Below are positions 6,435-39,221 of a stretch of DNA of 64,000 nucleotides, in pieces; the first letter of the stretch is position 1, and each line of letters starts with the position of its first letter. Both the position numbers and the translations under genes were made by a program. The stretch covers positions 1-64,000 of the forward strand of contig JBFMHE010000003.1 in the NCBI GenBank assembly GCA_040752355.1, in the 5' to 3' direction. The notes under the pieces are model-generated. The model ran no database searches. It was not told the origin of the DNA and worked only from the letters and a program-made list of their open reading frames with translations. The DNA comes from Nitrospirota bacterium. GTDB taxonomy: Bacteria > Nitrospirota > Thermodesulfovibrionia > Thermodesulfovibrionales > Dissulfurispiraceae.

Positions 6435-6450
6435 AGGAGGAGGAAAGACT

Positions 6451-9755: not shown

Positions 9756-11135
9756 ATGAACTCTCTCGATGACACCATAGCAGCCGTATCGACGCCGCCC
9801 GGAGAAGGAGGCATCGGCATTGTGCGCCTGAGCGGCAGGGACGCCCTCGCGCTTGCCGGAAGGGTCTTCGTATCGCCGCGGGGAAAGCCGCTCACCGGGA
9901 CGCGGTCCCATACGATCCTGCACGGCTTCGCGGTTAATCCGGCCGACGGCGCGCGTATCGACGAGGTGCTCGTCACGGTAATGCGCGCCCCCGCCACCTA
10001 TACCCGCGAGGATGTGGTCGAGATCAACTGCCACGGCGGCATCGTGCCCCTCAGGGCGGTGCTCCAGGCGCTGCTCGATGCGGGCGCGCGGCTCGCCGAG
10101 CCGGGGGAGTTCACGAAGCGCGCTTTTCTGAACGGCAGGATCGATCTCATTCAAGCCGAGGCAGTGATCGACGTGATACGGGCGAAGACGGAAACAGCGG
10201 AGCGGATCGCCCAGCAGCAGCTCGAGGGAAGGCTCTCCCGGCGCATCGCGGCGCTCCGGGAGAGGGTCACGGAGCTCTGCGCCCATGTCGAGGCGTATAT
10301 CGATTTCCCCGAAGACGAGATAGAACCGCTCCCGGCCTCCGCGCTGCTCGGCGCCATGGCAGAAATAGAGGCTGAGCTGGCGGGGCTCTCGCAGGGGTAT
10401 GCCGAGGGCAAGTTCTTCAGGGAGGGCGTCTCCGCAGCCATCGTCGGCAAGCCGAACGTCGGCAAATCGTCGCTGCTCAATGCGCTGCTCGAAAAAGACC
10501 GGGCGATCGTGACCGAGATCCCGGGTACTACAAGAGATGTCATCGAAGATGTCCTGAACATCAAGGGCCTTCCCCTCAGGATCATGGATACCGCCGGTAT
10601 ACGGGAGACGCACAACCTCGCCGAACAGGAGGGAGTGAAGCGGAGCGTGAAGGCGATCGAGGGGGCCGATCTCGTCATCGCCGTGCTCGATGCGGGCAGG
10701 GAGCTCGATGATGCCGACAGAGAGGTGCTCGACCGGATAGCTCGGAAGCGGGCGATGGTAGTGGTCAACAAATGCGACATCCTGTCGCCGCGCTTTGCCT
10801 TCACCGGATATCCCGGCGACGCCGTGAGGGTATCGGCGCTCACCGGAGAGGGCATCGAGGCGGTCAGGCAGCGCATCTATGAGCTCTGCATCGCTTCCGG
10901 CAGCGGGCACGACCGGGAAGACCTCCTGGTGACCAACCTGCGCCACAAGCACGCCCTCGACCGGGCGCTCCAGTCCCTCGCTGAGGCGCGGCAGGCGCTG
11001 GAGACTCACCTGCCGCTCGAGGTCGTCGCTCTCTTCCTCCGGGAATCGCTCGACCATCTGGGCGGCATCATCGGCGCAGTGACCACCGAGGATATCCTGG
11101 AGAGGATCTTCAGCGCATTCTGCATCGGGAAGTAA
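9756..11135 (+). CDS. mnmE: tRNA modification GTPase MnmE
   Basis: 459 residues, normal length. An N-terminal folate-binding domain (DTIAAVSTPPGEGGIGIVRL) is followed by a helical domain and an inserted G domain. The G domain carries GKPNVGKSSLLN (P-loop), GTTRD (switch), DTAGIRE (G3) and NKCD (G4). The C-terminus is the family signature CIGK, whose Cys is part of the active site. With MnmG it installs the cmnm5 group on U34 of certain tRNAs; MnmA, encoded 1.7 kb downstream, thiolates the same base. A 108-bp gap separates it from yidC. Confidence 0.96.
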   Translation: MNSLDDTIAAVSTPPGEGGIGIVRLSGRDALALAGRVFVSPRGKPLTGTRSHTILHGFAVNPADGARIDEVLVTVMRAPATYTREDVVEINCHGGIVPLRAVLQALLDAGARLAEPGEFTKRAFLNGRIDLIQAEAVIDVIRAKTETAERIAQQQLEGRLSRRIAALRERVTELCAHVEAYIDFPEDEIEPLPASALLGAMAEIEAELAGLSQGYAEGKFFREGVSAAIVGKPNVGKSSLLNALLEKDRAIVTEIPGTTRDVIEDVLNIKGLPLRIMDTAGIRETHNLAEQEGVKRSVKAIEGADLVIAVLDAGRELDDADREVLDRIARKRAMVVVNKCDILSPRFAFTGYPGDAVRVSALTGEGIEAVRQRIYELCIASGSGHDREDLLVTNLRHKHALDRALQSLAEARQALETHLPLEVVALFLRESLDHLGGIIGAVTTEDILERIFSAFCIGK

Positions 11136-24312: not shown

Positions 24313-24398
24313 TGGTGCCGGAGGAGAGACTCGAACTCTCACGGGGTTGCCCCCAGCGGATTTTGAGTCCGCCGCGTCTGCCATTCCACCACACCGGC
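24313..24398 (-). tRNA. tRNA-Leu (anticodon CAA)
   Basis: 86 nt with CCA encoded. The anticodon stem gcgga/tccgc surrounds the loop ctcaaaa, giving anticodon CAA. A GC-rich long variable arm (tgggggcaaccccg) and T arm gagag-ttcgagt-ctctc follow, as expected for Leu. The acceptor stem has six pairs and one U-U mismatch at position 6-67. The 5' half (24358-24399) is repeated at 39180-39221, which marks it as the integration site of the defence island. It reads the UUG codon. Confidence 0.93.
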
Positions 24399-24399
24399 A
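24358..24399. repeat. Left attachment repeat (attL), 5' half of tRNA-Leu
   Basis: The 42-bp segment starting ggattttgagtccgcc recurs at 39180-39221 with one mismatch (A to G at 24388). The repeat spans the tRNA 5' end to the anticodon loop, so the insertion rebuilt a complete tRNA on the left side. The intervening 14.8 kb is the island. Confidence 0.88.
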
Positions 24400-24405
24400 A
24401 TAGTA

Positions 24406-24885
24406 TTAACAGCTTTCTTGTATTGGGCTTTGGGGATGCAGAAAATAGTGCTTATTTTTTAATATAGCATAGAGTTTCTTTGAAATGGGAATTTCTTGTA
24501 GGTAGCTTCCGCTCTTCGATGCTTTGATCTTTACGAGCCGGTTGGAAATATCTAAGACCTCTTTCCCTGTGGCCGATGTGCTTCGACTAATCGGCATCCT
24601 GTGTGGACCCTGAGCACAATAAAGGCATAAAGGTATTCCGATGTTGCAACTGCCAGCAATCTTTTCTCCTCCTCTCTCCTTGCTTTCGGTAATGTAATCA
24701 TTTACCTTCTTTGCGGTGGTCTCTCTGGCTTTCGTCACGAAAAAAGGGATAAGATGATCCAGGTATGCTTTTGCCACGTCCTCATCAGTGGTGTCGCAAG
24801 AGCGGAAATAGCGTTGCCCGTTGAGCATGAAGTGGATCATGCCATATTTGTTCAAAATAACAAAGTGTTCATAAAAAATGAACAT
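24406..24885 (-). pseudogene. Tyrosine recombinase (integrase) remnant
   Basis: 159 codons directly beside the attL repeat, pointing towards it. The first part (YGMIHFMLNGQRYFRSCDTT, then DEDVAKAYLDHLI) is the start of a phage-type integrase arm domain. The late part (EVLDISNRLVKIKASKSG, then QEIPISKKLYAIL) matches the start of the catalytic domain around the conserved Lys. Between them the core-binding domain and first Arg are missing, and the RxxH and Tyr end is absent, so the gene is deleted and inactive. Its neighbour, the tRNA repeat, supports the call. Confidence 0.72.
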
Positions 24886-24989
24886 ATATATTTTTGAACG
24901 TATTATAGTAGTTCATTGATATAAAATTAAATTAAGAAAAGTTAAATTCTGGCCAACTTGACTTTTGTTCAAAAATTATATATGTTCAT
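24878..24989. promoter_or_regulatory. Paired inverted repeats upstream of abiEi, likely AbiEi operators
   Basis: atgaacatatatatttttga at 24878-24897 is repeated in inverse at 24967-24989 (gttcaaaaattatatatgtt), and a further half-site gttgaac lies at 24994-25000. AbiEi-type antitoxins are known to bind two inverted repeats of about 23 bp to repress their own operon. The gap between them also contains the divergent promoters of the integrase remnant and abiEi. Confidence 0.65.
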
Positions 24990-25020
24990 AATAGTTGAAC
25001 ATAATAGGATGGTGAACAAA

Positions 25021-26064
25021 ATGCGTGGAACTATGGAGACCTTGGAAAATGAAATCGTTCAGCTTGCGGTAAACGCACTCAAAAAAGATATCACTCTGGA
25101 TATCCAGCCCGAAGTGTTGATGCCGACGGATGACACGGCCAGAAGAGGAGATTTCATCGTTACGTTTACTGTTCAAGGGAGAGAGTTCCGTTATTTTGCT
25201 GAGGTGAAGACGCTCGTGACGAAGGCTACGAAGCTTTTGGCTCTCGTGCAAAAGGAAAAGACCAATCTCCCCTATCTGCTGGTCACCCGCTATGTCAATC
25301 CTGAAATGGCAGAGCAGTTGAAAGCAGACGACCTCCAGTTCATCGACACGGCAGGAAACGCCTATATCAAGCAACTGCCCCTCTATATCTTTGTTAAAGG
25401 CAACAGGCCCCCTGAGATAACTATGCGTGCTCCTCAGAAAAGAGCCTTTAAGCCGACGGGGCTTAAAGTCATCTATGCCCTTCTCTGTAACCCAGGTCTG
25501 GAGAACAAGCCCTATCGTGATATCGCTGATGCCGCTGATGTCGCGCTGGGAACAATCGGGTGGATGATGAGGGAGCTCAAACAAATGGACTACCTGCTCG
25601 ACATGGGAAAAAGAGGGAAGAAGCTGACTCAGAAAGAGGCGCTCTTACAACGGTGGGTGACGGAATATCCGGAGAGGCTGCGGCCAAAGCATGTAGTGGG
25701 CCGTTACAGAGGACCGGAAGAGTGGTGGCAGCAAACAACTCTGGACCCTGTGATTGCGCAGTGGGGGGGAGAAGTGGCTGCACAGAGGTATACGAATTAT
25801 CTGAAGCCTCAGGTGATTACTCTCTATACAAATACCCGGTACCTGAACCAACTCCTCATGCAGCATCGACTGAAGCGGGACCCGCAGGGAGATATCGAGA
25901 TCCTCGAAAGGTTCTGGAAGACTACGCAAGAGTGGCAATATGGAGATAAAGTTCATCCGCTACTGGTTTACGCAGACCTTATGGCTACCGGTAATGAAAG
26001 AAACATCGAAGTCGCTAAAATGATCTACGAGGAGTACCTTGCTGGACTTGTCAGGCAGAATTGA
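25021..26064 (+). CDS. abiEi: AbiEi-type antitoxin of a type IV toxin-antitoxin system
   Basis: 347 residues from ATG 25021 (aggatgg site 8 bp upstream); earlier in-frame codons overlap the operators. The N-terminal part resembles a restriction-endonuclease-like fold (DFIVTFTVQGREFRYFAEVKT), then a central winged-helix stretch (GLKVIYALLCNPGLENKPYRDIADAADVALGTIGWMMREL) expected to bind DNA. The toxin gene follows with a 26-bp overlap. The antitoxin represses transcription and counters the toxin's action without binding it. Coverage by operators upstream fits this. Confidence 0.82.
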   Translation: MRGTMETLENEIVQLAVNALKKDITLDIQPEVLMPTDDTARRGDFIVTFTVQGREFRYFAEVKTLVTKATKLLALVQKEKTNLPYLLVTRYVNPEMAEQLKADDLQFIDTAGNAYIKQLPLYIFVKGNRPPEITMRAPQKRAFKPTGLKVIYALLCNPGLENKPYRDIADAADVALGTIGWMMRELKQMDYLLDMGKRGKKLTQKEALLQRWVTEYPERLRPKHVVGRYRGPEEWWQQTTLDPVIAQWGGEVAAQRYTNYLKPQVITLYTNTRYLNQLLMQHRLKRDPQGDIEILERFWKTTQEWQYGDKVHPLLVYADLMATGNERNIEVAKMIYEEYLAGLVRQN

Positions 26065-26893
26065 TAATCATTACGTCGAAGCACTTCATGTGCTGAAGGG
26101 CGTTACGGATGACCTCGGCATTCCATTCTTCATCGTGGGTGCGACGGCCCGAGACCTTATTTTTGAGCACTGCTACAATATCAGGGCACCCAGAACGACG
26201 TTAGATATCGACCTGGGAGTTGAAGTCGCGGACTGGGACCAGTTCACCAGGTTGACTCAAGCAATGATCGGTTCAGGGAGACTCACCGCAGGTGGAGAAC
26301 CACAGAGGTTTCTTTTCGGGCCTGTCAGAATTGATATCCTTCCCTTCGGACCGGTTGCCGATGCGCAGGGAAGGATATACTGGCCGCCGGAGCATGAAGT
26401 ATTAATGAGTATGCTGGGGTACCGAGAGGCATATGATTATTCGGAAACTGTAAGGCTGAGCACGGCTCCGGAGTTGGATGTGCGCGTGTCTACATTGCCC
26501 GGACTTGCCTTGATGAAGATCATCTCCTGGAATGATAACTATTCTGTTCGTAAGAAAGATGCAGAGGACCTGCTGTTCATAATGCATAACTATGGGGAAG
26601 CGGGTAATGAAGAGAGACTTTATGATCGCGAGCAAACCTTGATGGAAGAGGAGAGATTCGATATTCGTCTGGCCGGTATAAGGTTGCTCGGGCGCGATAT
26701 CGCCCGCATTTGTGATCAGAACACCGCTGAGGTGATTAAATCGATCTTTCTGAAAGAGACTATGGAAGAAGGAGAGTATAGGTTGGTTCGGCATATGATC
26801 GCAGGCACTCAAGAGTTCGATAGCAAGTTCGAAGATGTGCTGCAGCTTATAGAGAAGTTGAAGCAGGGTTTTTCAGAAGGTACCGAGAGCTGA
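26039..26893 (+). CDS. abiEii: AbiEii nucleotidyltransferase toxin
   Basis: 284 residues from a TTG start with a gaggag site, overlapping the antitoxin by 26 bp. Nucleotidyltransferase motifs are visible: FFIVGATARDL with TTLDIDLGVEV (DxD metal site), RIDILPFG, and LALMKIISW with SVRKKDAEDL. AbiEii toxins use a nucleotide, typically GTP, to modify a target and arrest growth when phage infects. All key acids are present, so it is likely active. It opens the defence cargo of the island. Confidence 0.87.
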   Translation: MLDLSGRIDNHYVEALHVLKGVTDDLGIPFFIVGATARDLIFEHCYNIRAPRTTLDIDLGVEVADWDQFTRLTQAMIGSGRLTAGGEPQRFLFGPVRIDILPFGPVADAQGRIYWPPEHEVLMSMLGYREAYDYSETVRLSTAPELDVRVSTLPGLALMKIISWNDNYSVRKKDAEDLLFIMHNYGEAGNEERLYDREQTLMEEERFDIRLAGIRLLGRDIARICDQNTAEVIKSIFLKETMEEGEYRLVRHMIAGTQEFDSKFEDVLQLIEKLKQGFSEGTES

Positions 26894-27294
26894 AATCGAG
26901 GGATTACTCTTAAAAAATTATAGAGGAAATCCCAGGATATTCTTTCCCGAACCCATCTGAAAGGAATCAAGCATGTCCGCCTGCTGCGCCGCTTATGTAA
27001 GCCACTTATCCATCTCTATGAACGAACGTATAAAATGTATTAAAACCAAAAAACAGAAACAGCTTGAAATTTAAGCAATGAGTCTGCAACAATATGCCCA
27101 TTATTATGTTGCTGGGGGGAGCATGGCAGTTGTCGAAAAACTTATAGAGGCATCAACGTGTAGTTTTTTCTCATGTTTAGAATTTGAAGAGAGATGCAAC
27201 ACAGTTCAAGAACACCAGCCTGCCCTCAATCACTCCCTCAGCTCTGGGTGCATACCCAAGACAATGATGCTTTCTTCTGATTAATTGGTGCCCC
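26894..27294. other. Intergenic region (401 bp) before the Wadjet operon
   Basis: AT-rich, with acgtataaaatgtattaaaa near 27027-27046 as a possible promoter core for jetA. A 68-codon ORF (27078-27284) lies within it, listed separately with low confidence. No RNA or repeat recognised. Confidence 0.35.
27078..27284 (+). CDS. Possible small protein before jetA
   Basis: 68 codons starting MSLQQYAHYYVAGGSMAVVEKL, with no family resemblance, no clear ribosome site and an unbalanced second half. It lies 10 bp before jetA in the same direction. Probably chance, but a leader peptide or small island protein cannot be excluded. Confidence 0.2.
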   Translation: MSLQQYAHYYVAGGSMAVVEKLIEASTCSFFSCLEFEERCNTVQEHQPALNHSLSSGCIPKTMMLSSD

Positions 27295-28764
27295 ATGAAT
27301 GCGCCTGTAGGAAATATGGATCACAATAGATCGTCGGGACAATTGGCAGAAGGTCTTATCGACCTTGCGCCACAGCAACGGAATTTGCTGTTGATGCGCC
27401 CATTGTTTCACTTGGAGCTCACAAAAAACAAATTTTCAGACGGTAGTGGCGGGAATCTTCTGGAGAGCATCGATACCCACTATCTCAGCCTTGCAGCGCT
27501 AGCCTATATGATGGAAGGCACAGCCGTTGCTTTAGGATACACTCTCTCAGAAGTTCAGCAGTATCTGGCCCAAGTTATCGCACACATGAAGCCAGCGCTG
27601 ACGACGGCACAACGTAGCCGAATCTCTGAAATTATTCTTGATTCGCTCGACAACGCGTCAAACAACTATCAAGAGCACAGCTACGATTATTTCCACGCAC
27701 CCACCGGCGACACACGGACGGTGCGCTTCAGACTCACAACCTACGAGCCGGACCTCGAAGACACTTATCGTTATCGCCCCACCGCCGAGGGTTACCTGCT
27801 TCTGATGGGGATGCTGGATTTGGAGGTCGAGGATCATCAAATTCTAATCGAGCGTATGCTCCAAATGCTTATCGAGAGGGGAAGATTCGACCAGGCGTAT
27901 GAGTTTGCGCGCCGCGCACGGATGCTCTCCATCGAGCACCGTCAACAGTTACGCGATTTCATTACCCAGGCCTGGCGGGCACCGGGTTCGGTGGTCTGGA
28001 CGCGCGACATAGCCCCTCGCCTGAACGAAGCCCGCATTCACATTCATGCACGGCAGGAAGAGGATCGCCGGATGGAGGAATCAGTACGGGAACAACTCAT
28101 CCAGATCGAAGATATCAGAACCCGCGAACAGCTCGTCCGCCTACACGGAGTACTGAAAAGCGCAAGCAACGTCCGTGCCCACCTTCAGCTGGAAGTGACG
28201 AGGGCGGGGGACAAGTTCATGGATGCACAGGCCGGCGCGTTCCGTGCCCGCAAACCGTCGGGACTACCTGACTTGGAGGCAAAACTACTTCCGGCACTCT
28301 TGGAGCGTCCGGTGAGCATACTTGCGGAAAATGCTGAGGAACTGCTCCTCAGCCTATATCCCGCCATTGTGCCAAAAACCCCTGACCTTTCAGACCTTCT
28401 ATCCTTGCTGCTAGAGCAGCGCTCAGTCGAGGAAGACTTTGATGACGAGGAGGAGAAAGGGGAGGTACTGCTATTCAGGATCTATCGAGAACCTTTCTCT
28501 GCTGAGATCGTTCAGCACGTATACCAGTGGTTAAGGACGAAATTCTCGCTTGGTGCCAGTTGGAAACTTGATGAGTTATTGATTGCTGCAGAGGATGAGG
28601 GCTTTACAGCCCTGGAGAAGCAGTGCATTGCGTATACTCTTTATGGGAGTTTCCCTGATAGCGAGAGCCTTTTCCCGAACATGAAGGCGCACCCTGATGG
28701 CGTTTTTCGCGCAGACGTTGTCCAGGGCGACAACCTGCGTTTCGACCAACGGGAGGCAGTGTGA
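27295..28764 (+). CDS. jetA: Wadjet JetA (kleisin-like MukF/MksF homologue)
   Basis: 489 residues, mainly helical, starting with a winged-helix-like region (QQRNLLLMRPLFHLELTKNKF) and ending with an acidic stretch (EEDFDDEEEKGE) before a C-terminal winged-helix-like domain (YQWLRTKFSLGASWKLDELLIAAEDEG). Its own sequence is divergent; the call rests mostly on gene order jetA-jetB-jetC-jetD, with 4-bp overlaps and sizes that fit. The kleisin bridges the two JetC heads and holds JetB. There is no clear ribosome site at 27295; the ATG at 27316 is an alternative start. Confidence 0.8.
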   Translation: MNAPVGNMDHNRSSGQLAEGLIDLAPQQRNLLLMRPLFHLELTKNKFSDGSGGNLLESIDTHYLSLAALAYMMEGTAVALGYTLSEVQQYLAQVIAHMKPALTTAQRSRISEIILDSLDNASNNYQEHSYDYFHAPTGDTRTVRFRLTTYEPDLEDTYRYRPTAEGYLLLMGMLDLEVEDHQILIERMLQMLIERGRFDQAYEFARRARMLSIEHRQQLRDFITQAWRAPGSVVWTRDIAPRLNEARIHIHARQEEDRRMEESVREQLIQIEDIRTREQLVRLHGVLKSASNVRAHLQLEVTRAGDKFMDAQAGAFRARKPSGLPDLEAKLLPALLERPVSILAENAEELLLSLYPAIVPKTPDLSDLLSLLLEQRSVEEDFDDEEEKGEVLLFRIYREPFSAEIVQHVYQWLRTKFSLGASWKLDELLIAAEDEGFTALEKQCIAYTLYGSFPDSESLFPNMKAHPDGVFRADVVQGDNLRFDQREAV

Positions 28765-29468
28765 CAGCGCTCGCCCGTGATGCTACCCGCCTGCTCTATA
28801 AGGCTCTCCAGCTAGGTCTCTCGCCAGCAAACGATACTGAATATCGCGAGTTGCTGGGCAAGTACCGGGCGGACGGGGCCTTTTCAGAGGCCGTTCAGGC
28901 GGCAGCCACCGGCATGGAACTGATGATTCTGGACGTGAGCGAGCGAGGACTCGTTATTGCGCCCTTGAGCAGAGAGAGCCGCTTCTCCTTGCGGCTGGCC
29001 GACCTGAGACAATACCTCAGCGGCGAGCAGAAGGTGGCGCTTGTGCTTGCGCATCTAGCCATTAGCGCGGTGTTTTTCCCCACTACTGACCGTTTGGAAG
29101 ATGACGCTAAAACACCATTGCCTGCAACAGTGGCCCGTTTCCGCGATACACTGCTCAGCATGGTGAACCGTCTGGCTGAGGCACAGACTCCGAACGAGTC
29201 TGTAGAACAGCTGGTCCCCGGCTGGCAGCTGCTCAAGCGCCTTCCCCCTGTTATCCCGAAGGCTGAGCGCGCAGCGACGAACTCGGTTGAGGGATTTGTG
29301 AAACTCGCTCTCAAGCAAATGGCTGAGTACGGGCTTGTCCGCCTGGAACGGGAAAGTGAGGACGAAACACAGACAGTCTATACCGCCACTCATCGCCTCC
29401 GCGTCCATTTACGAGAACTTACGCTTTGGCGTCTTTTCGATGCGACGCGTGAGAGCGTCGAGTCCTGA
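28761..29468 (+). CDS. jetB: Wadjet JetB (MukE/MksE homologue)
   Basis: 235 residues from a GTG that overlaps the jetA stop by 4 bp. It begins ARDATRLLYKALQLGL, then has helices with RFRDTLLSMVNRLAEAQT and a C-terminal winged-helix-like VEGFVKLALKQMAEYGLVRL. JetB dimerises and binds the kleisin JetA in the SMC-like Wadjet complex. Identified from size, place and fold-type pattern. Confidence 0.78.
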   Translation: MTALARDATRLLYKALQLGLSPANDTEYRELLGKYRADGAFSEAVQAAATGMELMILDVSERGLVIAPLSRESRFSLRLADLRQYLSGEQKVALVLAHLAISAVFFPTTDRLEDDAKTPLPATVARFRDTLLSMVNRLAEAQTPNESVEQLVPGWQLLKRLPPVIPKAERAATNSVEGFVKLALKQMAEYGLVRLERESEDETQTVYTATHRLRVHLRELTLWRLFDATRESVES

Positions 29469-29472
29469 GGCT

Positions 29473-32400
29473 ATGATGCAAAGAATCTCTCGCATCTACG
29501 TCGGCCGCTTCGGCAGCAATACCGCTTGGTATGAGCATCATTTATTTGACTTGACTGATCCCGATACACAGGAAACTACTGATACGGTCTTCAATTTGGA
29601 GAATGGCGGCGGGAAAACATCTCTTCTTTCGTTCATATTCAGCATGTTCGATCCTAAACAGGAGCGCTGGTTACAGCACCTTCAGAAAAAAGAACTTCGA
29701 TTCACTGACTACTTCGCTCGGGATGGACGCCCTTCGTTCCTGATAATGGAGTGGGACATGCCAGCTCGTGCAGCAGACCTGTTTGACTATAAGCTCATCA
29801 TCGGCCAGTCGGTTGCCTTAAAGGAGAGTACCGAACGTGGCACTGATGTGGACCGCTGCTTTTTTGCATTCGAAGCTACAAAAGATATGGGCCTTGAGGA
29901 GATCCCCGCTCCCGGCCTCACGGATACGCCGGTGCGCTCAATGACGGAATTCACGCAATGGATGCAACAGGCGAGCAAACGTGCCGGGGACTTCCACCAC
30001 ACAAAAACACAGGATGATTGGGTGAAACACCTCAACTATCGGCTCTTGGATACCGAGTTGTTGCGCATGCAGGTCGATTTCAACAGCAGCGAAGGCGGCA
30101 TGGAAAAAGGCTTCCTGACTTTTAACACTGAGATAGACCTGCTGCGTCGTTTCCTCTGGCTGACTCTCGACCAGGAGAGATCCGCAACGGTTCGGGATGC
30201 TGTAGCTCAGACAGCCGATAAGCTTAAATCAAAACCAAAATACGAGCGGAGGCTTGAGCAACTGATACGCCTTCAATCGGTCATGGTACCTTTTGCGGAG
30301 ACTGCCACACAGTATGAGACCGCTGATGCAGTCCACAAGGAAACGCAGAGACAGGCGGCGGGTATAGCCGTAGCACTTCTTAAGCACCGTGAACAGAGGC
30401 AGCGAAGCATGCAGGAAAAGACGTCCTACGCGCTCACGCAGGACGGCATTGTCAAAACATCACAGGATATAGCCGCTCAGCATCAGAACGATATCATAGC
30501 ACTGCGGGGACTACTGTATGATCGCAAAGTTGCTGCCGCGGCTGAAAAGCACGGCGCATCCAAGGAGGCTCTTGAGAAGGGAGCACACCGCTTGCGGTGC
30601 GTTGAAGGCACCGAGGCCATGGTCCATGTTGAAGCAGCCCGTGAAAGGGTGAAAGAGCTTGAGGCCTTATATGAAAGCGAACGTGAGGGGCTGAAGCCCG
30701 CCCGCCAGCAGGCCGAAATTCAAGGCTCTCTCTTTAGCTGCGCACTGCACTCTGCTGAAAAAGCAGCTCTTCAGCGAAAAGGGCAGGCCGAGGAAGCGGA
30801 GCGAATCGCAAAATCATTGATTGCCGCCCTTAAAGGGCAACAGAGTGATACCCATAAAGAAATCATTGCGTTATCTACCGAGGAAGGCCAGCTTATACAG
30901 TTTCTGGAGACTTACCAAACACAGCGGGATCGACTACGGCAGGAACTCCTTCTTCAGCCTGATGATGCCGATTCTTCATCTGCCCTGAAAAGGCTTCGGC
31001 AGCAACTCAAGGGTCTGGAAGAACAGCTCGTAAACTTTCACAAGGAACACCAAGAGTTGGACGCAAAGGAACGCACCCTTAGACAGGGAGCGTCAGAAGA
31101 AGCGCTTGCGGCAGCCCATGCGCATGCCGAACAGGAGGCACATCGGACTGTCCTTGCAGCCGGAGAGGCACTGCGTGATGCTCTCAGGCAAGATTCCTCA
31201 CTGTGCACCGCAGCAGATGCCGAAGAGGTCGATCCAGATTCGCAGGTCTTGTTGGAAGCACTAGACCGTTTGCTCGCTGATACACAGCGAGAAATAGCAG
31301 ACCGGAACATCAGTCTGGCACAGTTGAAGGCGGACAGAGGGTCGATCATAGAGACAGGTTTGGCTGGCCGCAGCGCTGATATTGATGCGGTTGTTCGTCA
31401 GCTTCAAGGAGCGGGAATCCGCTCGGCGAGGGCTGCCAATACGTATGTGGCTGAACTGCGTCCTTCGGTGGAAGAGGCGCGGGCACTTGTTCTCTCAGAT
31501 CCAGCCCGTTTTCTAGGGGTGAACGTTGCCAAGGGGGAGTGGGCGAAAACTCGACAGCGCATAGGGAGCTTGGTATTCAAATTGTCTGCACCGGTCACCA
31601 TCGCAGTGGCTTCCGTGGACGATGCCCCTGACACAGGCGACCGTATTGTACTTGCGTCACAGGATGACTCAGCCTACAACAAAGAGGCGGCCCGTACTGT
31701 TTTAGCGGCTCTTGATGCACGCATCCACGATCAGGAGGACCAGCTGGCTGCATACGAGAAGCGGCGTGACCTTGCTATAGGAGCACGGGAAAAACTTGTA
31801 CGGTACCAGTCCGATTACGGAACAGCTTGCTTACGGAAGGCCGAGGCAGAGATAGAACGCCTTCAGGCCGAAGAGCAGGCAGCGCAGAACAGGGGGCACG
31901 AGCTTACTATACTGGCAAACAGTGCTCAGGAGGAAGGCAAAATAATTGCGGCCAAGACGCAGTCTTTGCCCACACAGATAGAGAGTATTAAAGGCTCGAT
32001 CAGACGCATCGGGGACTTCCAGCGGGATTTAGAAACGCCATCGGCAGATAAACGGGACCGTCTTAAGGAAGTGCAAAGTTTGCTGGATTCAAAGAGAAAG
32101 CTCCTTGAGGATACAGATAGACAACGCAACGAGGCGGATGAACAAGCCAGGCACGCACTGGAAGACTGCATCAATTACGGCAAAGAGGCGCAGTCCCTTG
32201 CAGCCGAGCGGGCGCAAATCACTTATCACGACACTGAGTATCCGGCCGAAGAGCAACTACGGAAAAAACCACGGGGGATCGAAACTCTTCGAATCACGTA
32301 TGCCGATGCGGAAGAGGCACTGAAAACTCAGGAGAGGCATCGTCTCGGTGTGCTTGCTGAAAAGCTTTCAACTGCGCGTAATGAGCTCACGAAGGCGACA

Positions 32401-33807
32401 GTCTCTTTCAATGAGGAATTTGCCGACCTTGATACCGCCGAGTTGGAACCTTTTCGGGCCCTCGACTTTGAAGGAGCTCTTCGCGACCAGCGCATTGCTG
32501 TGCAGAGGTTGTACAATGCACAACAAGAGGCTCAAACGGCATTCACCGTGGCAAACACCGAAAGAACTGAATTCTGGAAAGGGAAGCGGAAAATTACGTC
32601 TACTCAGGAAATGCACGAGAAAACGGATGAAGCCCTTGTTACCACAATCGAGGAGATCAGTGCTGACATCACACGATTTGAAGATATGGCTACCAGGGCA
32701 GCACAGGAGGCTGAAAAGGCTCGACACGTAGCCAACCAGGATGATAGGATTGCCAAAGAACTCGAAACACTCCACGCGGCATTAAAAGCGACTATTCCCT
32801 TCGACTCGGTGGTGTCTGAACATCTCAGCCTTTCTGATGATGTGTCCATTGCTGTACAAAATATCATCTCTGAGTTCCGTAGACAAGAGAATTCTCTCAA
32901 TACATTACGGGAGAAGGCGCTCGAAGCTTTTCGCCATCTCACCAGGGTTGCTAGCGCGAAGGAATTTAGCGACGTGGAGCCAGAACTATCACGTGATATT
33001 ATCGATAGCGACTTTGAGCCCGCCTGCTCAGACCGTGTGCGGATTGCGTCGCTTGTCGAGGATCGAATTAAGGCAACTCAAGATACGCTGGAGGGCATGA
33101 AGCCGGATTTCGAAAACTGCGTCGGCGAACTCTACAACCTGACCTATGAGGGGATTGGTCTTCTGAATCGTGCGTGCACGATGACCATGCCCTTTTCGAC
33201 CCCTTATGTGGGTGGCAAGCATATCCTTAAAATGAAAGCATCGTTCGTGGGAATTTCAGTAGAGGTGCGCAAGGAGGCGATTCGCCACTATTTGAATACC
33301 TTGATCGATAGCAATGTTATTCCTGCCAAGGGAGCGGATATCGTAGCACAGTGCCTTGTCCTTGTCAGTGGTCGCAAGGAACTGGGTCTTCAAGTGCTCA
33401 TAATGGAACAAAACGAGGCCTATCAGTATCAGTTCATCGCTGCCCTGAAAGACTCCAGAGGACAAGGTACCGTGATTGCCATGTTCCTTTACCTGCTTAT
33501 TAGCCAATTGCGCGCCGACACCCAGGCGCGGGTAAAACGCGGAGGAGGTGGCCCTCTTATCCTCGACAATCCGTTTGCCAGTGTCCAGACCCGCTCCCTC
33601 CTCGATGCGCAACGTTTGCTGGCGAAAGAAATCGGCGTTCAACTGATATTCTTTACCGCTCTTAAGGATCCCAATATCCTGTCCGCTTTCCGTCGTTTGA
33701 ACCGCCTCAGGAAAACCGGCGTAAACTCTGTAACAAACCGTTCACATGTGGAGATGGTGAGCGGCGTATTTGAGGATTTAGCCGGACAGCAGGCAGAGGA
33801 AGCATGA
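29473..33807 (+). CDS. jetC: Wadjet JetC (SMC-like ATPase, MukB/SbcC type)
   Basis: 1444 residues from ATG 29473, 4 bp after jetB. The N-terminal Walker A is NLENGGGKTSLL (about residues 37-48). Two long coiled coils (about 300-620 and 800-1150) flank a hinge-like segment with VNVAKGEWAKTRQRIGSLVF (about 670-690). At the C-terminus come GQGTVIAMFLYLLISQL (signature-like) and Walker B PLILDNPFASVQ. The Walker B ends in DN rather than DE, as in some SbcC-like relatives. JetC extrudes DNA loops of plasmids until JetD cuts them. Translationally coupled to jetD. Confidence 0.92.
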   Translation: MMQRISRIYVGRFGSNTAWYEHHLFDLTDPDTQETTDTVFNLENGGGKTSLLSFIFSMFDPKQERWLQHLQKKELRFTDYFARDGRPSFLIMEWDMPARAADLFDYKLIIGQSVALKESTERGTDVDRCFFAFEATKDMGLEEIPAPGLTDTPVRSMTEFTQWMQQASKRAGDFHHTKTQDDWVKHLNYRLLDTELLRMQVDFNSSEGGMEKGFLTFNTEIDLLRRFLWLTLDQERSATVRDAVAQTADKLKSKPKYERRLEQLIRLQSVMVPFAETATQYETADAVHKETQRQAAGIAVALLKHREQRQRSMQEKTSYALTQDGIVKTSQDIAAQHQNDIIALRGLLYDRKVAAAAEKHGASKEALEKGAHRLRCVEGTEAMVHVEAARERVKELEALYESEREGLKPARQQAEIQGSLFSCALHSAEKAALQRKGQAEEAERIAKSLIAALKGQQSDTHKEIIALSTEEGQLIQFLETYQTQRDRLRQELLLQPDDADSSSALKRLRQQLKGLEEQLVNFHKEHQELDAKERTLRQGASEEALAAAHAHAEQEAHRTVLAAGEALRDALRQDSSLCTAADAEEVDPDSQVLLEALDRLLADTQREIADRNISLAQLKADRGSIIETGLAGRSADIDAVVRQLQGAGIRSARAANTYVAELRPSVEEARALVLSDPARFLGVNVAKGEWAKTRQRIGSLVFKLSAPVTIAVASVDDAPDTGDRIVLASQDDSAYNKEAARTVLAALDARIHDQEDQLAAYEKRRDLAIGAREKLVRYQSDYGTACLRKAEAEIERLQAEEQAAQNRGHELTILANSAQEEGKIIAAKTQSLPTQIESIKGSIRRIGDFQRDLETPSADKRDRLKEVQSLLDSKRKLLEDTDRQRNEADEQARHALEDCINYGKEAQSLAAERAQITYHDTEYPAEEQLRKKPRGIETLRITYADAEEALKTQERHRLGVLAEKLSTARNELTKATVSFNEEFADLDTAELEPFRALDFEGALRDQRIAVQRLYNAQQEAQTAFTVANTERTEFWKGKRKITSTQEMHEKTDEALVTTIEEISADITRFEDMATRAAQEAEKARHVANQDDRIAKELETLHAALKATIPFDSVVSEHLSLSDDVSIAVQNIISEFRRQENSLNTLREKALEAFRHLTRVASAKEFSDVEPELSRDIIDSDFEPACSDRVRIASLVEDRIKATQDTLEGMKPDFENCVGELYNLTYEGIGLLNRACTMTMPFSTPYVGGKHILKMKASFVGISVEVRKEAIRHYLNTLIDSNVIPAKGADIVAQCLVLVSGRKELGLQVLIMEQNEAYQYQFIAALKDSRGQGTVIAMFLYLLISQLRADTQARVKRGGGGPLILDNPFASVQTRSLLDAQRLLAKEIGVQLIFFTALKDPNILSAFRRLNRLRKTGVNSVTNRSHVEMVSGVFEDLAGQQAEEA

Positions 33808-34835
33808 GTGAGCTATTTCTGCAGGCCATTCGGTCCGGCCACCGGAAGCGCATTGTTCTGACAACTCTGCGACGTCTCTGGCTGGACACGAATCCGGAGC
33901 AGTTACAGCACCCCGAGCGTGATGCGCTCCTTCTAGCTGCCCTGAAGGAATTGGAAGTGAGGGGTGAACTAATATTGCCGGCGCAGGGTAGCTTCGAGCG
34001 GCTCGGGAACCCGCCTATGCCAAAATTCGTAACCTTGGTAAACAAGTCTTACGTTCGTCCCCCTGATGATTGGTCTCGTATTTCGTGGCTTCCAGAGCTT
34101 GGATTTTGGACTGATTTGAATACAAGCGAGCTAGTTACTGCCAAAGCTATCAACGACTGGCTGCTCCGTAGACGGGGAAAATTCCTACGCGTGCCTCTGC
34201 GAGAGCGGTCATTAGAGATTTTTGGCGACGAGAAATACTTGGATCTTCGGGTCCGGGACAACGCTCTATTCTCTGGGCGCTTGCCTCTCGCGGTAATTGG
34301 TGCATTTATGGTCCCGCATCCGCTACCTTATCGTGCAGCTATCGCACCTGGTAAGCCATTACTCGTAGTGGAGAACCATCATACCTACTGGAGTCTGGCA
34401 GAATGGAACCTACAGGTCTGCCGGTATGCTGCGATTGTCTATGGAGCCGGGAAGGCCTTCTGTTCGAGCGGGCAGGCTCTTCATGAGATAATACGTGAAT
34501 GTCACGGCGATGGAGCTTTGTACTTTGGAGATCTGGATCCCGCTGGTATTATGATACCCCTTCGGTTTAATGCTTCCAGTGAGTTTCCCGTTCACCCAGC
34601 AACCGACCTTTATCAGTTCGCTCTTGAGCGCGGTTATCGGCGTCCCAGTGTTATCAGAGTAGCCGAGGATGAAACAGCTGCGAAGAGATGGTTGCCACAA
34701 TTGAGCGATATGCTTTGTTTGCTCTGGGCCTCGGATCACTGGATTCCCCAAGAAAGCCTCGGAACCGAACAACTCTTCAGCAACTGGAATATTGATCCCA
34801 ATATGGTCGTACCGCGCCTTCTGGAAAGCCGATGA
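33804..34835 (+). CDS. jetD: Wadjet JetD (TOPRIM/topoisomerase VI-like nuclease)
   Basis: 343 residues, 4-bp overlap with jetC. The N-terminal winged helix (residues 15-70) is followed by WDF-like strands and a TOPRIM core with PLLVVENHHTYW (catalytic Glu) and LYFGDLDPAGI (DLD metal pair). JetD is the nuclease subunit that cleaves DNA after JetABC has looped a small circular plasmid. All acidic residues are present, so the operon appears complete. Its shorter length suggests a type other than the best studied type I, which I cannot settle by eye. Confidence 0.9.
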   Translation: MSELFLQAIRSGHRKRIVLTTLRRLWLDTNPEQLQHPERDALLLAALKELEVRGELILPAQGSFERLGNPPMPKFVTLVNKSYVRPPDDWSRISWLPELGFWTDLNTSELVTAKAINDWLLRRRGKFLRVPLRERSLEIFGDEKYLDLRVRDNALFSGRLPLAVIGAFMVPHPLPYRAAIAPGKPLLVVENHHTYWSLAEWNLQVCRYAAIVYGAGKAFCSSGQALHEIIRECHGDGALYFGDLDPAGIMIPLRFNASSEFPVHPATDLYQFALERGYRRPSVIRVAEDETAAKRWLPQLSDMLCLLWASDHWIPQESLGTEQLFSNWNIDPNMVVPRLLESR

Positions 34836-34871
34836 CTATTGTTGCTGAATTTAATAATATAAAATAGCTGA

Positions 34872-35579
34872 ATGGACTTCAATCAGGCAATCAGGGTCAT
34901 CACTAGGTTATTAACTGCTAAAAATCCCGATGCCTTTAACAGTTCCTGGATACTCGCCCATGCTCCGGAGTGTTATCGCTATATTCATAAAAATGTCAGA
35001 ACGGAACTGGGATACATCGATTGGGATAGAGTTACCTCAGCTTTACCACGGAAATTCCAGCGCAGATGGGTTCCTGCACGAATATCCATGCGTCGGAAAC
35101 CCTATGAGGATTGCTCGGAGGTTACAACGATTCTCAATAAATACCAGGAGAAGTTATATGTCTTCGACGCCCTCATGAACGAAGATGACAGGAGAATACG
35201 GGATAGTATCAGCATCGCTCTGGTGCGTCTTGCTCAGCATGGTAATATCTCAGCAAGACAGGAGATCTTAGAACGCGCTCGCCATACCATTGACGACTGG
35301 ATTGAACGGTATCGCTCCTTGGCTCGTTGGCAAGGATACAACGAGGAGATTCAGAAAAGGCTCGAAGCATGTATACGCTGTTACCGCTATTCGGGATCAT
35401 TCATCAAATATGTCTTCCTTACCTTGGTATATGCCGGGAGGGGGCTGCGGCCACTCTACACATACTCTTTAGATGACCCGATAGCGTTCGGCTCGGAGAA
35501 ACGTAGAGTTGAGAATGTCTTTAAAGATGAAAGGACGAATGAAATTCGTATCTATAAGCGTACTGATCACCGCTCATAA
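34872..35579 (+). CDS. Unknown protein with sigma-70 region-2-like segment
   Basis: 235 residues starting 36 bp after jetD, with no usual name. Residues about 110-200 (SIALVRLAQHGNISARQEIL, then IDDWIERYRSLARWQGYNEE and CIRCYRYSGSFIKYVF) have the layout of sigma-70 region 2: L--AQ-GN--AR-E, a W-rich helix, an aromatic turn and a SF--Y end. No region 4 or other DNA-binding part is visible. It might be an anti-sigma-like or sigma-like regulator of the island. The comparison is inference from pattern, not from a search. Confidence 0.5.
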   Translation: MDFNQAIRVITRLLTAKNPDAFNSSWILAHAPECYRYIHKNVRTELGYIDWDRVTSALPRKFQRRWVPARISMRRKPYEDCSEVTTILNKYQEKLYVFDALMNEDDRRIRDSISIALVRLAQHGNISARQEILERARHTIDDWIERYRSLARWQGYNEEIQKRLEACIRCYRYSGSFIKYVFLTLVYAGRGLRPLYTYSLDDPIAFGSEKRRVENVFKDERTNEIRIYKRTDHRS

Positions 35580-35836
35580 GTTACTCCTACTTCATCCTGC
35601 AAGCTTTTCTCTATAATCACTGTAAAAATTACTCTCGTTTTGTGCATAATAGAGTGGCTTTAACCTTTTGCATGGATAGGGGGGTATCTTATGCATCTAA
35701 TTGTAGCAGAGATAAGTAACGCTTATTCTCCTCTCGAATTAAAAGCTATATACGCGTATGCATGCCTTACCTTATTTTCACCTAACAGACTATTCCCATT
35801 GGTAGGTGTAAATCGGCACGGCTAGGATGAATCGTT
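35580..35836. other. Intergenic region (257 bp) before the SIR2/Argonaute pair
   Basis: AT-rich, with ttgcat-17-tatctt near 35668-35697 as a possible promoter. No coding sequence, RNA or repeat recognised. Confidence 0.35.
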
Positions 35837-37579
35837 ATGGAAAAAGGAAACGATGTGCCTCAGATAGACGCGGATGATTTTGCCCGACGTTTTTCTTTGC
35901 GGGCTGGAAATCTTATGTGGCTGCTCGGTGCCGGTGCATCAGCAGCGGCGGGAATTCCAACTGCCGGGGATATGGTTTGGGAGTTTAAGCAGCAGCTGTT
36001 CATTAGCCAACGACGCGTTTCACCCCAAGCTGTGGCTGATCTCTCGAATCCGGCAATCCGTGCTCAGCTGCAGGCCCATATCGATGCCTCTGGGAAAATG
36101 CCAGCGCCCGGATCTCCGGATGAGTATGCCGCACTTTTTGAAGCAGTCTATCCGGCTGAGACAGACCGTCGCACCTACTTAGATGCCAAGATGGTCGGAG
36201 CAAAGTTGTCGTATGGTCACGTGGCCCTCGCTACTCTGATGCGTGCACAACTGACGCGCCTGGTGTGGACGACGAACTTCGATCCTCTCGTGGCAGATGC
36301 TTGTGCTAAGGTCTATGGCGGAACGGGATCACTCACGACGGTGGCTCTCGACGCACCGGATTTAGCTGCTCAGTGCATCAGCGATGGAAGGTGGCCGATC
36401 GAGGTAAAGCTGCATGGCGACTTCCGATCTCGGCGACTCAAGAATACAGGAGATGAGTTGCGCCATCAGGACAAACGCCTGAGGCAAGTTCTGGTTGATT
36501 CCTGCAAGCGGTTCGGACTTGTAGTAGTCGGCTATAGTGGCCGCGACGACTCTACTACGGAGGCGTTAGAGGAGGTGCTGGAACACAGCGTCGCTTACCC
36601 TTCTGGATTGTTTTGGCTGCATCGTGGAGAAGAGCCACCGCTCGACCGCGTTGAACAATTGCTGACGCGTGCGAAACAGGCTGGAGTGGAGTCAGCCCTG
36701 GTTAGAATTCAAAGCTTCGATGAGGCAATGCGAGACTTGATGCGCTTGGTAAAAGGCATCGATACCACAATACTCGACGCTTTTGCTGTCGAGCGCCGTC
36801 GCTGGAGTGGTGCACCGCTACCAGGGGGAAGTCGTGGTTGGCCAGTAGTGCGCCTTAATGCCTTACCCGTCGTGCAGATTCCTACTGTCTGTCGGCGCGT
36901 CATCTGTCAAATAGGTGGCTACGCAGAGGCTCGGGAGGCTGTCGAGCAGGCCGATGTCGACGTGCTCGTTGCTCGCACTCAGGCTGGCGTGCTGGTCTTT
37001 GGAGCCGATACTGACGTGCGGGCAGCCTTTGAGAAGTACAGGATCACTGAATTCGACCTGTACACCATTGCCATCAAGCGCTTGCGCTATGATTCCGGCG
37101 AGCGAGGGCTATTACGTAGCGCGCTGACCCGTGCTATTGGACGCCATCATCGCTTAGACGTTATTCGTCGGCGAAGTACCGACTTGCTGGCACCTTCGAA
37201 TCCAAAGGAAAGTACCTGGGCACCACTAAGCCGCCTAGTGGGACCGCTTAGCGGCTCAATTAAAGGTTTCGATAACCTGCATTGGCGAGAAGGCATCAGC
37301 ACTCGCCTCGATTGGGCGGATGATCGGCTGTGGCTTCTGGTCGAACCGCGCACTGTCTTCGACGGAATTACTGATGAGAACAGGGCGGCGGCTGCTGATT
37401 TCGCCCGTGAACGAACGGTCAAGCGTTATAACAGGCAACTCAACGATCTGATCGACTTTTGGGCAGACCTGCTCTCCGGTGATGGAGGGGATCTGCGCGC
37501 GTTAGGGGTCGGAAGCGGAGTCGATGCGGTCTTCCGTCTTTCCAGCACCACGGGGGTATCGAGGAGGGCTGGTGTATGA
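35837..37579 (+). CDS. SIR2-APAZ effector of a short-Argonaute (SPARSA) defence system
   Basis: 580 residues. The SIR2 domain (about 20-290) has the NAD loop MWLLGAGASAAAGIPTAGDM, WTTNFDP with N147, and KLHGDF with H193, the residues needed for NAD hydrolysis. The rest, about 330-570 (SRGWPVVRLNALPV at the start, GLLRSALTRAIGRHHRLDVI), is the APAZ module that pairs with short Argonautes. It overlaps the Argonaute start by 4 bp. On sensing plasmid or phage transcripts or DNA through the Argonaute partner, the SIR2 domain drains NAD and kills the cell. Both active residues are present. Confidence 0.9.
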   Translation: MEKGNDVPQIDADDFARRFSLRAGNLMWLLGAGASAAAGIPTAGDMVWEFKQQLFISQRRVSPQAVADLSNPAIRAQLQAHIDASGKMPAPGSPDEYAALFEAVYPAETDRRTYLDAKMVGAKLSYGHVALATLMRAQLTRLVWTTNFDPLVADACAKVYGGTGSLTTVALDAPDLAAQCISDGRWPIEVKLHGDFRSRRLKNTGDELRHQDKRLRQVLVDSCKRFGLVVVGYSGRDDSTTEALEEVLEHSVAYPSGLFWLHRGEEPPLDRVEQLLTRAKQAGVESALVRIQSFDEAMRDLMRLVKGIDTTILDAFAVERRRWSGAPLPGGSRGWPVVRLNALPVVQIPTVCRRVICQIGGYAEAREAVEQADVDVLVARTQAGVLVFGADTDVRAAFEKYRITEFDLYTIAIKRLRYDSGERGLLRSALTRAIGRHHRLDVIRRRSTDLLAPSNPKESTWAPLSRLVGPLSGSIKGFDNLHWREGISTRLDWADDRLWLLVEPRTVFDGITDENRAAAADFARERTVKRYNRQLNDLIDFWADLLSGDGGDLRALGVGSGVDAVFRLSSTTGVSRRAGV

Positions 37580-38997
37580 GTAGCGAAATTTCCCCTCACG
37601 TTTGGCTTCCTGAACCCAAGTTGGCCTTCCATCCGGACCGCCAATCAGACCAAGACATTCACCCTCTTCGCGGGCTGTTGAGATTCGGTCCACACTCAAG
37701 TGGTCTGGTGCCTGACCCAATCAGGGTCGCCACAATAGCCCCAGCTGACGAGGGGCATCACCTTTACAGTTTCATGAGAGAACTCAAGGTGGTAGCAAAA
37801 GCAACCGAGCGTGTCGACTATCTTCCAGAGTGGCCCGGTTTTCATAGAGTTTTCGGCCTCCATATGCGTAGCGCTGGTGCAGGCTGCCATATAGAACTCG
37901 ACAAAGAGCTTGAGGTCGAATTGCGTGCCTCCTCAACGCCACACATAGTACTGGCTGACCGCTTAATCCGTACGATCCAAGGACTGGAAGCTCAACGCGA
38001 CAAATTTGATGTGCTGTTTATCTACATTCCCAAGCGTTGGATGCCCGCCTTCACAGGAGGCCCGGGTGAGGATTTCGATCTGCACGACCACCTGAAAGCC
38101 GCCACCGCTACACGTCGACTCCCCGTCCAGCTGGTGCGTGAGGATAAGGCTTTGGCTTACCCACACCGCGCCAGCGTTATGTGGCGTATTGGGCTGGCGC
38201 TCTATACAAAAGCCGGTGGTGTGCCCTGGAAGCTGGCTGATGTCGATCCTGAAACAGCCTACATAGGTATCTCTTACGCTGTACGCCCACCTGATTCGGA
38301 GCGACCGCGCTTTGTGACCTGCTGCAGTCAGGTCTTTGATGCTGAGGGATCGGGTCTGGAGTTCATCGCTTATGACACTCATGAGGTAGAAGTACAGCGA
38401 GAAAATCCCTTCCTCTCACGAACAGAGATGTTCCGTGTCATGACACGCTCTATGGACCTTTACCGTCGACGGCACGCGGGCCGCTCTCCCCGGCGTGTGA
38501 TGGTGCACAAAACCACCGAATTCAAAAAAGACGAGATTGACGGTTGCATGGAGGCTCTTCACCTCTGCGAGGCCGTCGACTTGGTGCAAATTGTCGAAGA
38601 CGTTGGATGGCGCGGCGTCCGGGTCGACCTTGACACTGGCACAGAGAGAGGCAAACCTGCTCCTTTTCCCGTCTCACGAGGTACTCTTGTTGGCTTAGGT
38701 CCGCGTGAAGCATTACTGTGGACACACGGTGATGTGCGCGGCATCAGTGATCGCAGGGCATATTTTCAGGGGGCTCGAAGTACTCCGCGGCCAGTGCGCT
38801 TGGTGCGACACGCTGGCCATGGCCCATGGGATGAAACAGCACGCGCGATCCTTGCGCTTTCGAAGATGGACTGGAACAACGATGCCTTGTATGACCCACT
38901 ACCTGTAACAATCGGGTACGCGAAGGTGCTTGCACGAGTTGTTAAGCGTATGCGCGGCTTGGGTAGCGCGCCTTACCAATTCCGCTTTTTCATGTAG
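37576..38997 (+). CDS. Short prokaryotic Argonaute (MID-PIWI) with inactive PIWI
   Basis: 473 residues, the size of short pAgo proteins that lack N and PAZ domains. A MID-type region (DVLFIYIPKRWMP, FDLHDHLKAAT, RRLPVQLVRED) precedes a PIWI domain with AYIGISYAV, RRVMVHKTTEFKKDE and TPRPVRLVRHAG. The first catalytic Asp of active Argonautes is replaced by Ser233, so it guides rather than cuts. It forms a heterodimer with the upstream SIR2-APAZ protein. Confidence 0.9.
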   Translation: MSSEISPHVWLPEPKLAFHPDRQSDQDIHPLRGLLRFGPHSSGLVPDPIRVATIAPADEGHHLYSFMRELKVVAKATERVDYLPEWPGFHRVFGLHMRSAGAGCHIELDKELEVELRASSTPHIVLADRLIRTIQGLEAQRDKFDVLFIYIPKRWMPAFTGGPGEDFDLHDHLKAATATRRLPVQLVREDKALAYPHRASVMWRIGLALYTKAGGVPWKLADVDPETAYIGISYAVRPPDSERPRFVTCCSQVFDAEGSGLEFIAYDTHEVEVQRENPFLSRTEMFRVMTRSMDLYRRRHAGRSPRRVMVHKTTEFKKDEIDGCMEALHLCEAVDLVQIVEDVGWRGVRVDLDTGTERGKPAPFPVSRGTLVGLGPREALLWTHGDVRGISDRRAYFQGARSTPRPVRLVRHAGHGPWDETARAILALSKMDWNNDALYDPLPVTIGYAKVLARVVKRMRGLGSAPYQFRFFM

Positions 38998-39179
38998 ACA
39001 GGGAAGATGTTCGATAAAAGACTTAAAAGAGGCGGAACTCCACTGTATCTATTTTGTATCTTTTTTGCGGTAGTTAAGGGTATTTACCGGTAAGTATCTA
39101 TGACGCCAAACGGTACTATTTTACTTAATAATCAATGGTATTAATTGAAAATAGAGGAAAAGCCTAAACCTTCAAAATG

Positions 39180-39221
39180 GGATTTTGAGTCCGCCGCGTC
39201 TGCCATTCCGCCACACCGGCA
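39180..39221. repeat. Right attachment repeat (attR), second copy of the tRNA-Leu 5' half
   Basis: 42 bp identical to 24358-24399 apart from one base. It lies 4 bp from the CDF gene stop, so before insertion the tRNA gene stood directly after that gene. The rest of 38998-39179 is AT-rich and holds nothing else I can identify. Confidence 0.88.

Follow-up and report, generated by a model that had tools for sequence, protein, structure and literature searches.

The 235-amino-acid open reading frame (ORF) at positions 34872-35579 of the window (the 64,000-nt stretch of contig JBFMHE010000003.1 from a Nitrospirota bacterium that was analyzed as a whole) is a genuine gene, beyond chance, and its product belongs to a protein family that is unannotated in every library searched. 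In our preferred reading, to which we assign a probability of roughly 40%, it encodes a putative RNA polymerase-binding regulator of mobile elements, which has a domain akin to region 2 of sigma-70, lacks region 4, and would read promoters with only a -10 element, including its own. This explanation is favored by the conservation of the protein, its predicted fold, the -10-only promoter, the linkage to recombinases, tRNAs and AbiE, and the tRNA-Leu repeats around the gene's own island.

The gene, its family and its promoter

The gene and its parts are as follows:

34872-35579, plus strand: sigma-region-2-like gene, 235 aa (ORF from ATG 34872 to TAA 35579; homologs; dN/dS)
34872-35180, plus strand: N-terminal helical domain, residues 1-103, with the core IDWD..T...L......W invariant (alignment; model pLDDT 81.5)
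35181-35459, plus strand: sigma-70 region-2-like domain, residues 104-196 (AlphaFold model and VIA-align; hhalign)
34858-34863, plus strand: -10-like hexamer TATAAA, 8 nt before the ATG (family-conserved start-proximal box)

The ORF begins 36 bp after the stop codon of jetD (at 34835) and on the same strand, and its coordinates confirm the position given in an earlier note on this DNA; the segments SIALVRLAQHGNISARQEIL and CIRCYRYSGSFIKYVF quoted there are indeed present in the protein, and the PADLOC E-values bear out the names given to the neighbors (Wadjet and an Argonaute system). No annotated family had come to mind then, and scans of the ORF against Pfam, NCBIfam, PHROGs and PADLOC likewise returned nothing. 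Searches with the protein sequence gave only chance matches among PDB sequences (phmmer/hmmsearch), nothing among plasmids, and one chance match or nothing among phages.

Homologs are nevertheless plentiful: more than 30, with 41-62% identity (clear ones at 49-62% in the search for relatives), are spread over Nitrospirota, Thermodesulfobacteriota, Acidobacteriota and genomes of Patescibacteria type, with one copy on a viral contig, and homologs from other genomes span the whole 235-aa protein. When 84,980 species genomes were scanned on the basis of an alignment, 32 loci came up, of which 31 are real (a spurious match in Leyella, L062, was dropped); they belong mainly to Nitrospirota, and also to Syntrophaceae, Desulfobulbaceae, Acidobacteriota and Patescibacteria-type genomes. 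The gene is found in 22 of the 230 genomes of the window's class and as a single copy in the source genome, and several of the homologs are decayed or truncated. Differences at the three codon positions (0.36/0.26/0.60) are concentrated at the third, and dN/dS among close pairs is about 0.1-0.2, which together indicate a protein under purifying selection. The gene tree mixes phyla (e.g. the Desulfobulbaceae copy L046 falls inside a Nitrospirota clade with good support), a pattern that fits horizontal movement.

In many homologs a TATAAT-like hexamer is located 5-10 nt upstream of the start codon regardless of the DNA that precedes it, which is jetD in the window, palindromes resembling terminators close to tRNA genes in L033, L050 and L061, and other DNA elsewhere. 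By a strict count, the start-proximal box is present in 16 of 31 family genes versus 36 of 321 control ORFs (P 3e-7), where the controls are other long ORFs of the same loci with unverified starts and related rows are not independent; for a Shine-Dalgarno-like site the corresponding counts are 1/31 and 92/321. No -35 element rises above shuffled sequences in the upstream regions of the family (best match 2.7 versus 2.9 in shuffles). The simplest reading of these sequences is a leaderless, -10-only promoter that travels with the gene, which would therefore be an independent unit; this promoter is the only one tied to the sigma-like protein. A terminator was found neither between jetD and the gene nor after it, so read-through from jetD is possible. 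The ATATAAAAT shared by the regions upstream of AbiEi and of the sigma-like gene was set aside, because the AbiEi start is probably at 25009 and its promoter, in our own reading, would be the downstream TTGACT...TATATG.

A predicted sigma region 2 fold without region 4

Conservation extends along the whole protein, with invariant positions in the N-terminal part that include D50, W51, D52, T55 and W66, and in the C-terminal part L117, V118, R119, Q122, G124, N125, W143, W153, C167, Y171, Y173, F177, Y180, T184 and G191. The AlphaFold model, built on 31 sequences, is mediocre (mean pLDDT 73.5, pTM 0.43). Structure prediction of 34872-35579, suggested earlier as a check, placed sigma-70 region 2 in each of the first 47 rows when VIA-align was run on Foldseek candidates from the PDB, with 84-90 residues aligned (residues 102-196) and Z from 8.3 to 4.9, compared with 4.4 for the best unrelated protein in the list, although Z values as high as 8.3 may arise by chance for helical folds. 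The row for 3les is an epitope scaffold, the base of which we took to be a sigma fragment from its residue numbering. In Foldseek itself, sigma factors make up 5 of 36 matches, all weak and with E-values above 1. The N-terminal domain alone has no PDB match above Z 3.9 and no convincing fold match.

Comparisons of sequence profiles were less favorable. Aligned by hhalign with a profile of sigma region 2 made from 21 sigma genes of the source and related genomes, the family falls into the expected register with weak significance, since an equally good score arises in 3 of 300 column shuffles, and with a small profile of ECF factors only the result is not significant (54/500 shuffles). Pfam and NCBIfam scans at E 10 or 1 gave no match to the sigma-70 region 2 model PF04542, and no sigma family was matched by any of nine family members scanned against these libraries; by this sequence-model test, the protein is not a member of the sigma-70 family. 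The layout of sigma-70 region 2, which the earlier note had read from the letters, is thus upheld by the predicted fold, while its support from sequence profiles is weak, and residues ~104-196 likely, though not provably, adopt the sigma-2 fold. The absence of region 4, remarked on at the same time, is confirmed: the chain stops about 40 residues past the region-2-like part, and several homologs end at ~200 aa. Contacts made by Gln/Glu in region 2.2 are typical of sigma factors; according to our reading of the alignment they are only partly conserved in this family.

Several known systems offer points of comparison. The layout LV..AQ.GN..A..E, helix, (D/E)xIQ, GSF..YL and SLD.P resembles region 2 and the following linker of ECF and group 3 sigma-70 factors, but unlike them the protein lacks region 4 and a match to Pfam Sigma70_r2 and has an extra N-terminal domain. 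The nearest working analog appears to be T4 gp55, the sigma of late promoters, which acts together with gp33 and gp45 and reads -10-only promoters. Regions 2.1-2.4 of gp55 (aa 44-123) have been modeled after domain 2 of sigma-70 as placed on the beta' coiled coil, the upstream contact being supplied by another protein (PMC2988020). Both are small sigma-like proteins associated with -10-only promoters; the present family differs in showing no clear sequence match to gp55, a C-terminal sigma-like part, a location in bacterial integrative islands, and no demonstrated partner of the gp33/gp45 kind. In a check for gp55-type relatives, the best PHROGs match did not fall below E 0.48, the protein from the viral contig (L063) had no match in phage records, and a BFVD fold search gave weak matches only.

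SigO-RsoA and GafA would be looser precedents. In Bacillus subtilis, SigO-RsoA is a sigma factor split over two small polypeptides of 22.5 and 9.0 kDa (PMC10141391), and in three of our homologous loci a neighboring ORF with a helix-turn-helix (HTH) might similarly take a region-4-like role. This uncharacterized ORF of 139-168 aa has a terminal HTH that looks region-4-like by eye (L027:6249-6665, L029:9700-10116, L021:10357-10860), and it is multi-copy in some genomes (several in G083). It is present in 8 of 229 genomes and adjoins the sigma-like gene only in the three loci mentioned (L021/L031, L027, L029/L048); unlike in SigO-RsoA, it is missing from the source genome and from most homologous loci. 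Since it is mostly found elsewhere, we rejected it as an obligate partner in a split sigma. GafA, the activator of the gene transfer agent RcGTA, has only local sigma-like and DnaA-like DNA-binding similarity and contacts RNA polymerase through omega (PMC9638019). It too is a mobile-element regulator with sigma-like similarity, but its sigma-like part is the DNA-binding domain, its sequence and domain order differ, and it is known from Rhodobacterales and Hyphomicrobiales.

The tRNA-Leu island and the surroundings of homologs

The defence cluster of the window forms a single integrative island at tRNA-Leu(CAA), composed as follows:

24313-24398, minus strand: tRNA-Leu (CAA), the integration target of the island (ARAGORN)
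24358-24399, no strand: left copy of the 42-nt direct repeat, which corresponds to the 5' half of tRNA-Leu and matches the right copy at 41 of 42 positions (repeat search)
24400-39179, no strand: tRNA-Leu integrative defence island, 14.8 kb (direct repeats, GC)
24958-26064, plus strand: AbiEi-type antitoxin, true start probably ATG 25009 (Pfam AbiEi_2 5e-43; linkage)
26039-26893, plus strand: AbiEii-type nucleotidyltransferase toxin (Pfam AbiEii 6.6e-5; linkage)
27295-34835, plus strand: Wadjet type III jetABCD, a neighbor outside the system (PADLOC)
35837-38997, plus strand: SIR2-APAZ-like and short pAgo pair, SPARSA-type, a neighbor outside the system (PADLOC 1e-191, 1e-198; Pfam SIR2_2, Piwi)
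39180-39221, no strand: right copy of the 42-nt direct repeat (truncated tRNA-Leu; repeat search)

A direct repeat of the tRNA end is found at both borders, as in tRNA-integrated islands, and the GC content is 51.5% inside versus 60% in both flanks. The sigma-like gene lies between Wadjet III and the SIR2/short-pAgo pair, and AbiEi/AbiEii comes first. JetA, JetC and JetD were recognized by PADLOC (E 1e-218, 0 and 4e-87, respectively), while jetB was assigned only by its position and a weak match to DUF6063. Among the island ORFs scanned with Pfam and PADLOC no recombinase gene was recognized. A cargo island bordered by a tRNA recalls tRNA-anchored islands such as tycheposons, which carry a tyrosine recombinase (PMC10872708); the island of the window differs from tycheposons in lacking a recognized recombinase and in having defence genes as cargo.

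Elsewhere, about 11 of 34 loci have recombinases near the sigma-like gene; both the tyrosine and the serine type are represented, and some were named by eye from sequence. Tyrosine recombinases are present in L021/L031, L027, L029/L048, L032, L037, L038 and L040, and serine recombinases in L049, L063, L050 (convergent) and L053, with operon-like spacing to the sigma-like gene in L049 (1 bp upstream) and L063 (9 bp). In 7 of the 34 loci a tRNA is located within 500 bp of the gene, compared with 2.4 expected from random placement (P 0.002). From these sequences, the sigma-like gene is probably an accessory gene of integrative elements.

Individual loci illustrate the variety of these settings. 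In the viral contig (IMG/VR; L063:981-5185) the order is terminase, serine recombinase, sigma-like gene and tRNA-Ser, which suggests that the gene can occupy the end of a prophage. In L039 (7034-12655) an intact tRNA-Phe is followed by three 3' fragments of tRNA-Phe, at 8985, 11091 and 12589, each bounding small cargo (an ATPase, an HTH/RelE-like pair with the sigma-like gene, and a Fic protein); the sigma-like gene and the HTH/RelE-like pair fill a 2.1-kb segment between two of the fragments. In L043, the promoter and the initial 34 codons recur in diverged form 3.4 kb upstream (6414-6625, compared with 9818-10102), oriented alike; this duplicate, which flanks an AbiE pair, appears to have been left by repeated insertion or recombination and shows element turnover, without a clean att site. 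In a Yanofskybacteria genome (L050:12268-13398) the sigma-like gene and the serine recombinase near it have a reverse transcriptase gene as their neighbor.

The survey of neighbors proposed in the earlier note gave a divided answer: the link with Wadjet fell (0/34 loci), while a looser tie to islands with defence or toxin-antitoxin genes emerged, strongest with AbiEi/AbiEii. A pair 55-58% identical to that of the window adjoins the gene, within about 1.1 kb, in L035, L041, L043 and L045 (and G139, G140, G136, G175), and other AbiE-like genes adjoin the copies in L029/L048 and L046. This AbiEi occurs in 10 of 229 genomes of the class, and six of these have the sigma-like gene, against about one expected (P 6e-5); 4 of the 10 AbiEi copies are within about 1.1 kb of it, and that of the window is 8.8 kb off in the same island, with Wadjet standing between. 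In L041, L043 and L045 the AbiEi and sigma-like genes are divergent, and the intergenic region has repeated GTTCA/TGAAC motifs on either side. Other neighbors include HsdR (L025, L026) and HsdM/HsdS (L021). Most homologous loci have no AbiE, and therefore no single cargo is essential.

Proposed role and its alternatives

In the regulator that we propose, the sigma-2-like domain would dock on the beta' clamp helices of the host RNA polymerase, and the N-terminal domain would provide the DNA or protein contact that normally comes from region 4. The complex could then initiate transcription from the element's -10-only promoters, that of its own gene included, and the element would thereby control itself or its cargo through a switch that does not depend on the host. 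A more far-reaching version is that these proteins form a new family of sigma factors with region 2 alone, carried by tRNA-targeting mobile defence islands of several phyla, which use leaderless -10-only promoters via host RNA polymerase, autoregulate, switch the element or AbiE-type cargo, and so give the island its own transcription programme; as a whole we regard it as doubtful.

The strongest competitor, though unlikely, is a repurposed sigma-2 fold that inhibits or appropriates RNA polymerase (a superinfection-exclusion or abortive factor) and does not direct it to promoters. The solitary, moron-like gene with its own promoter at element ends, by tRNAs and recombinases, would suit such a factor, as would the frequent defence or toxin-antitoxin neighbors, including AbiE, and the partial retention of the canonical sigma contacts; but the protein bears no toxic or inhibitory signature, and the strict conservation of the -10-only promoter fits self-recognition better, even if a host sigma could read the box.

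Also unlikely, in our view, is an accessory of mobility, acting in the directionality of excision and integration or in transfer of the element, in which the sigma-like fold would bind single-stranded or melted att DNA. Such a role would be in line with the recombinases of both types that adjoin the gene in about one third of the loci (in operons in L049 and L063), with its place beside tRNAs at element ends, and with the 2.1-kb tRNA-Phe-bounded segment of L039, which holds a toxin-antitoxin pair and the sigma-like gene only. However, the recombinase partners come from unrelated families, often there is none, and none is recognized in the island of the window.

We give still less credence to the idea that the likeness to sigma is a chance arrangement of helices and that the protein is a DNA-binding regulator of AbiE-type islands with no relation to sigma factors. 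Weak profile scores, moderate Z values and the GTTCA/TGAAC repeats of the divergent AbiEi/sigma-like intergenic regions speak for it, yet the structural matches at the head of the list are all sigma region 2 and span the whole domain. That the gene is an extra member of the Wadjet operon, or of the defence operon as the earlier note had thought possible, can practically be dismissed despite the 36-bp distance from jetD on the same strand and the lack of a terminator, given its own family-conserved -10 box and no Jet or SPARSA homolog near any of the 34 homologous loci, so that its position next to Wadjet looks incidental.

The regulator that we favor is of a known kind, as sigma-like regulators of mobile elements have precedents; what is new is a form with sigma-2 only, found in defence islands integrated at tRNA genes. 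Without such a reading, the same ORF beside Wadjet could be taken by mistake for one of its subunits, and the hitherto unannotated family may serve as a flag for integrative elements and new defence cargo. If our reading is true, mobile defence islands bring with them a minimal, portable sigma-like factor and do not wholly depend on transcription control by the host, which would account for the expression of passenger systems in hosts that are unrelated, and the protein would offer a one-domain sigma system in which to probe what region 2 achieves alone.
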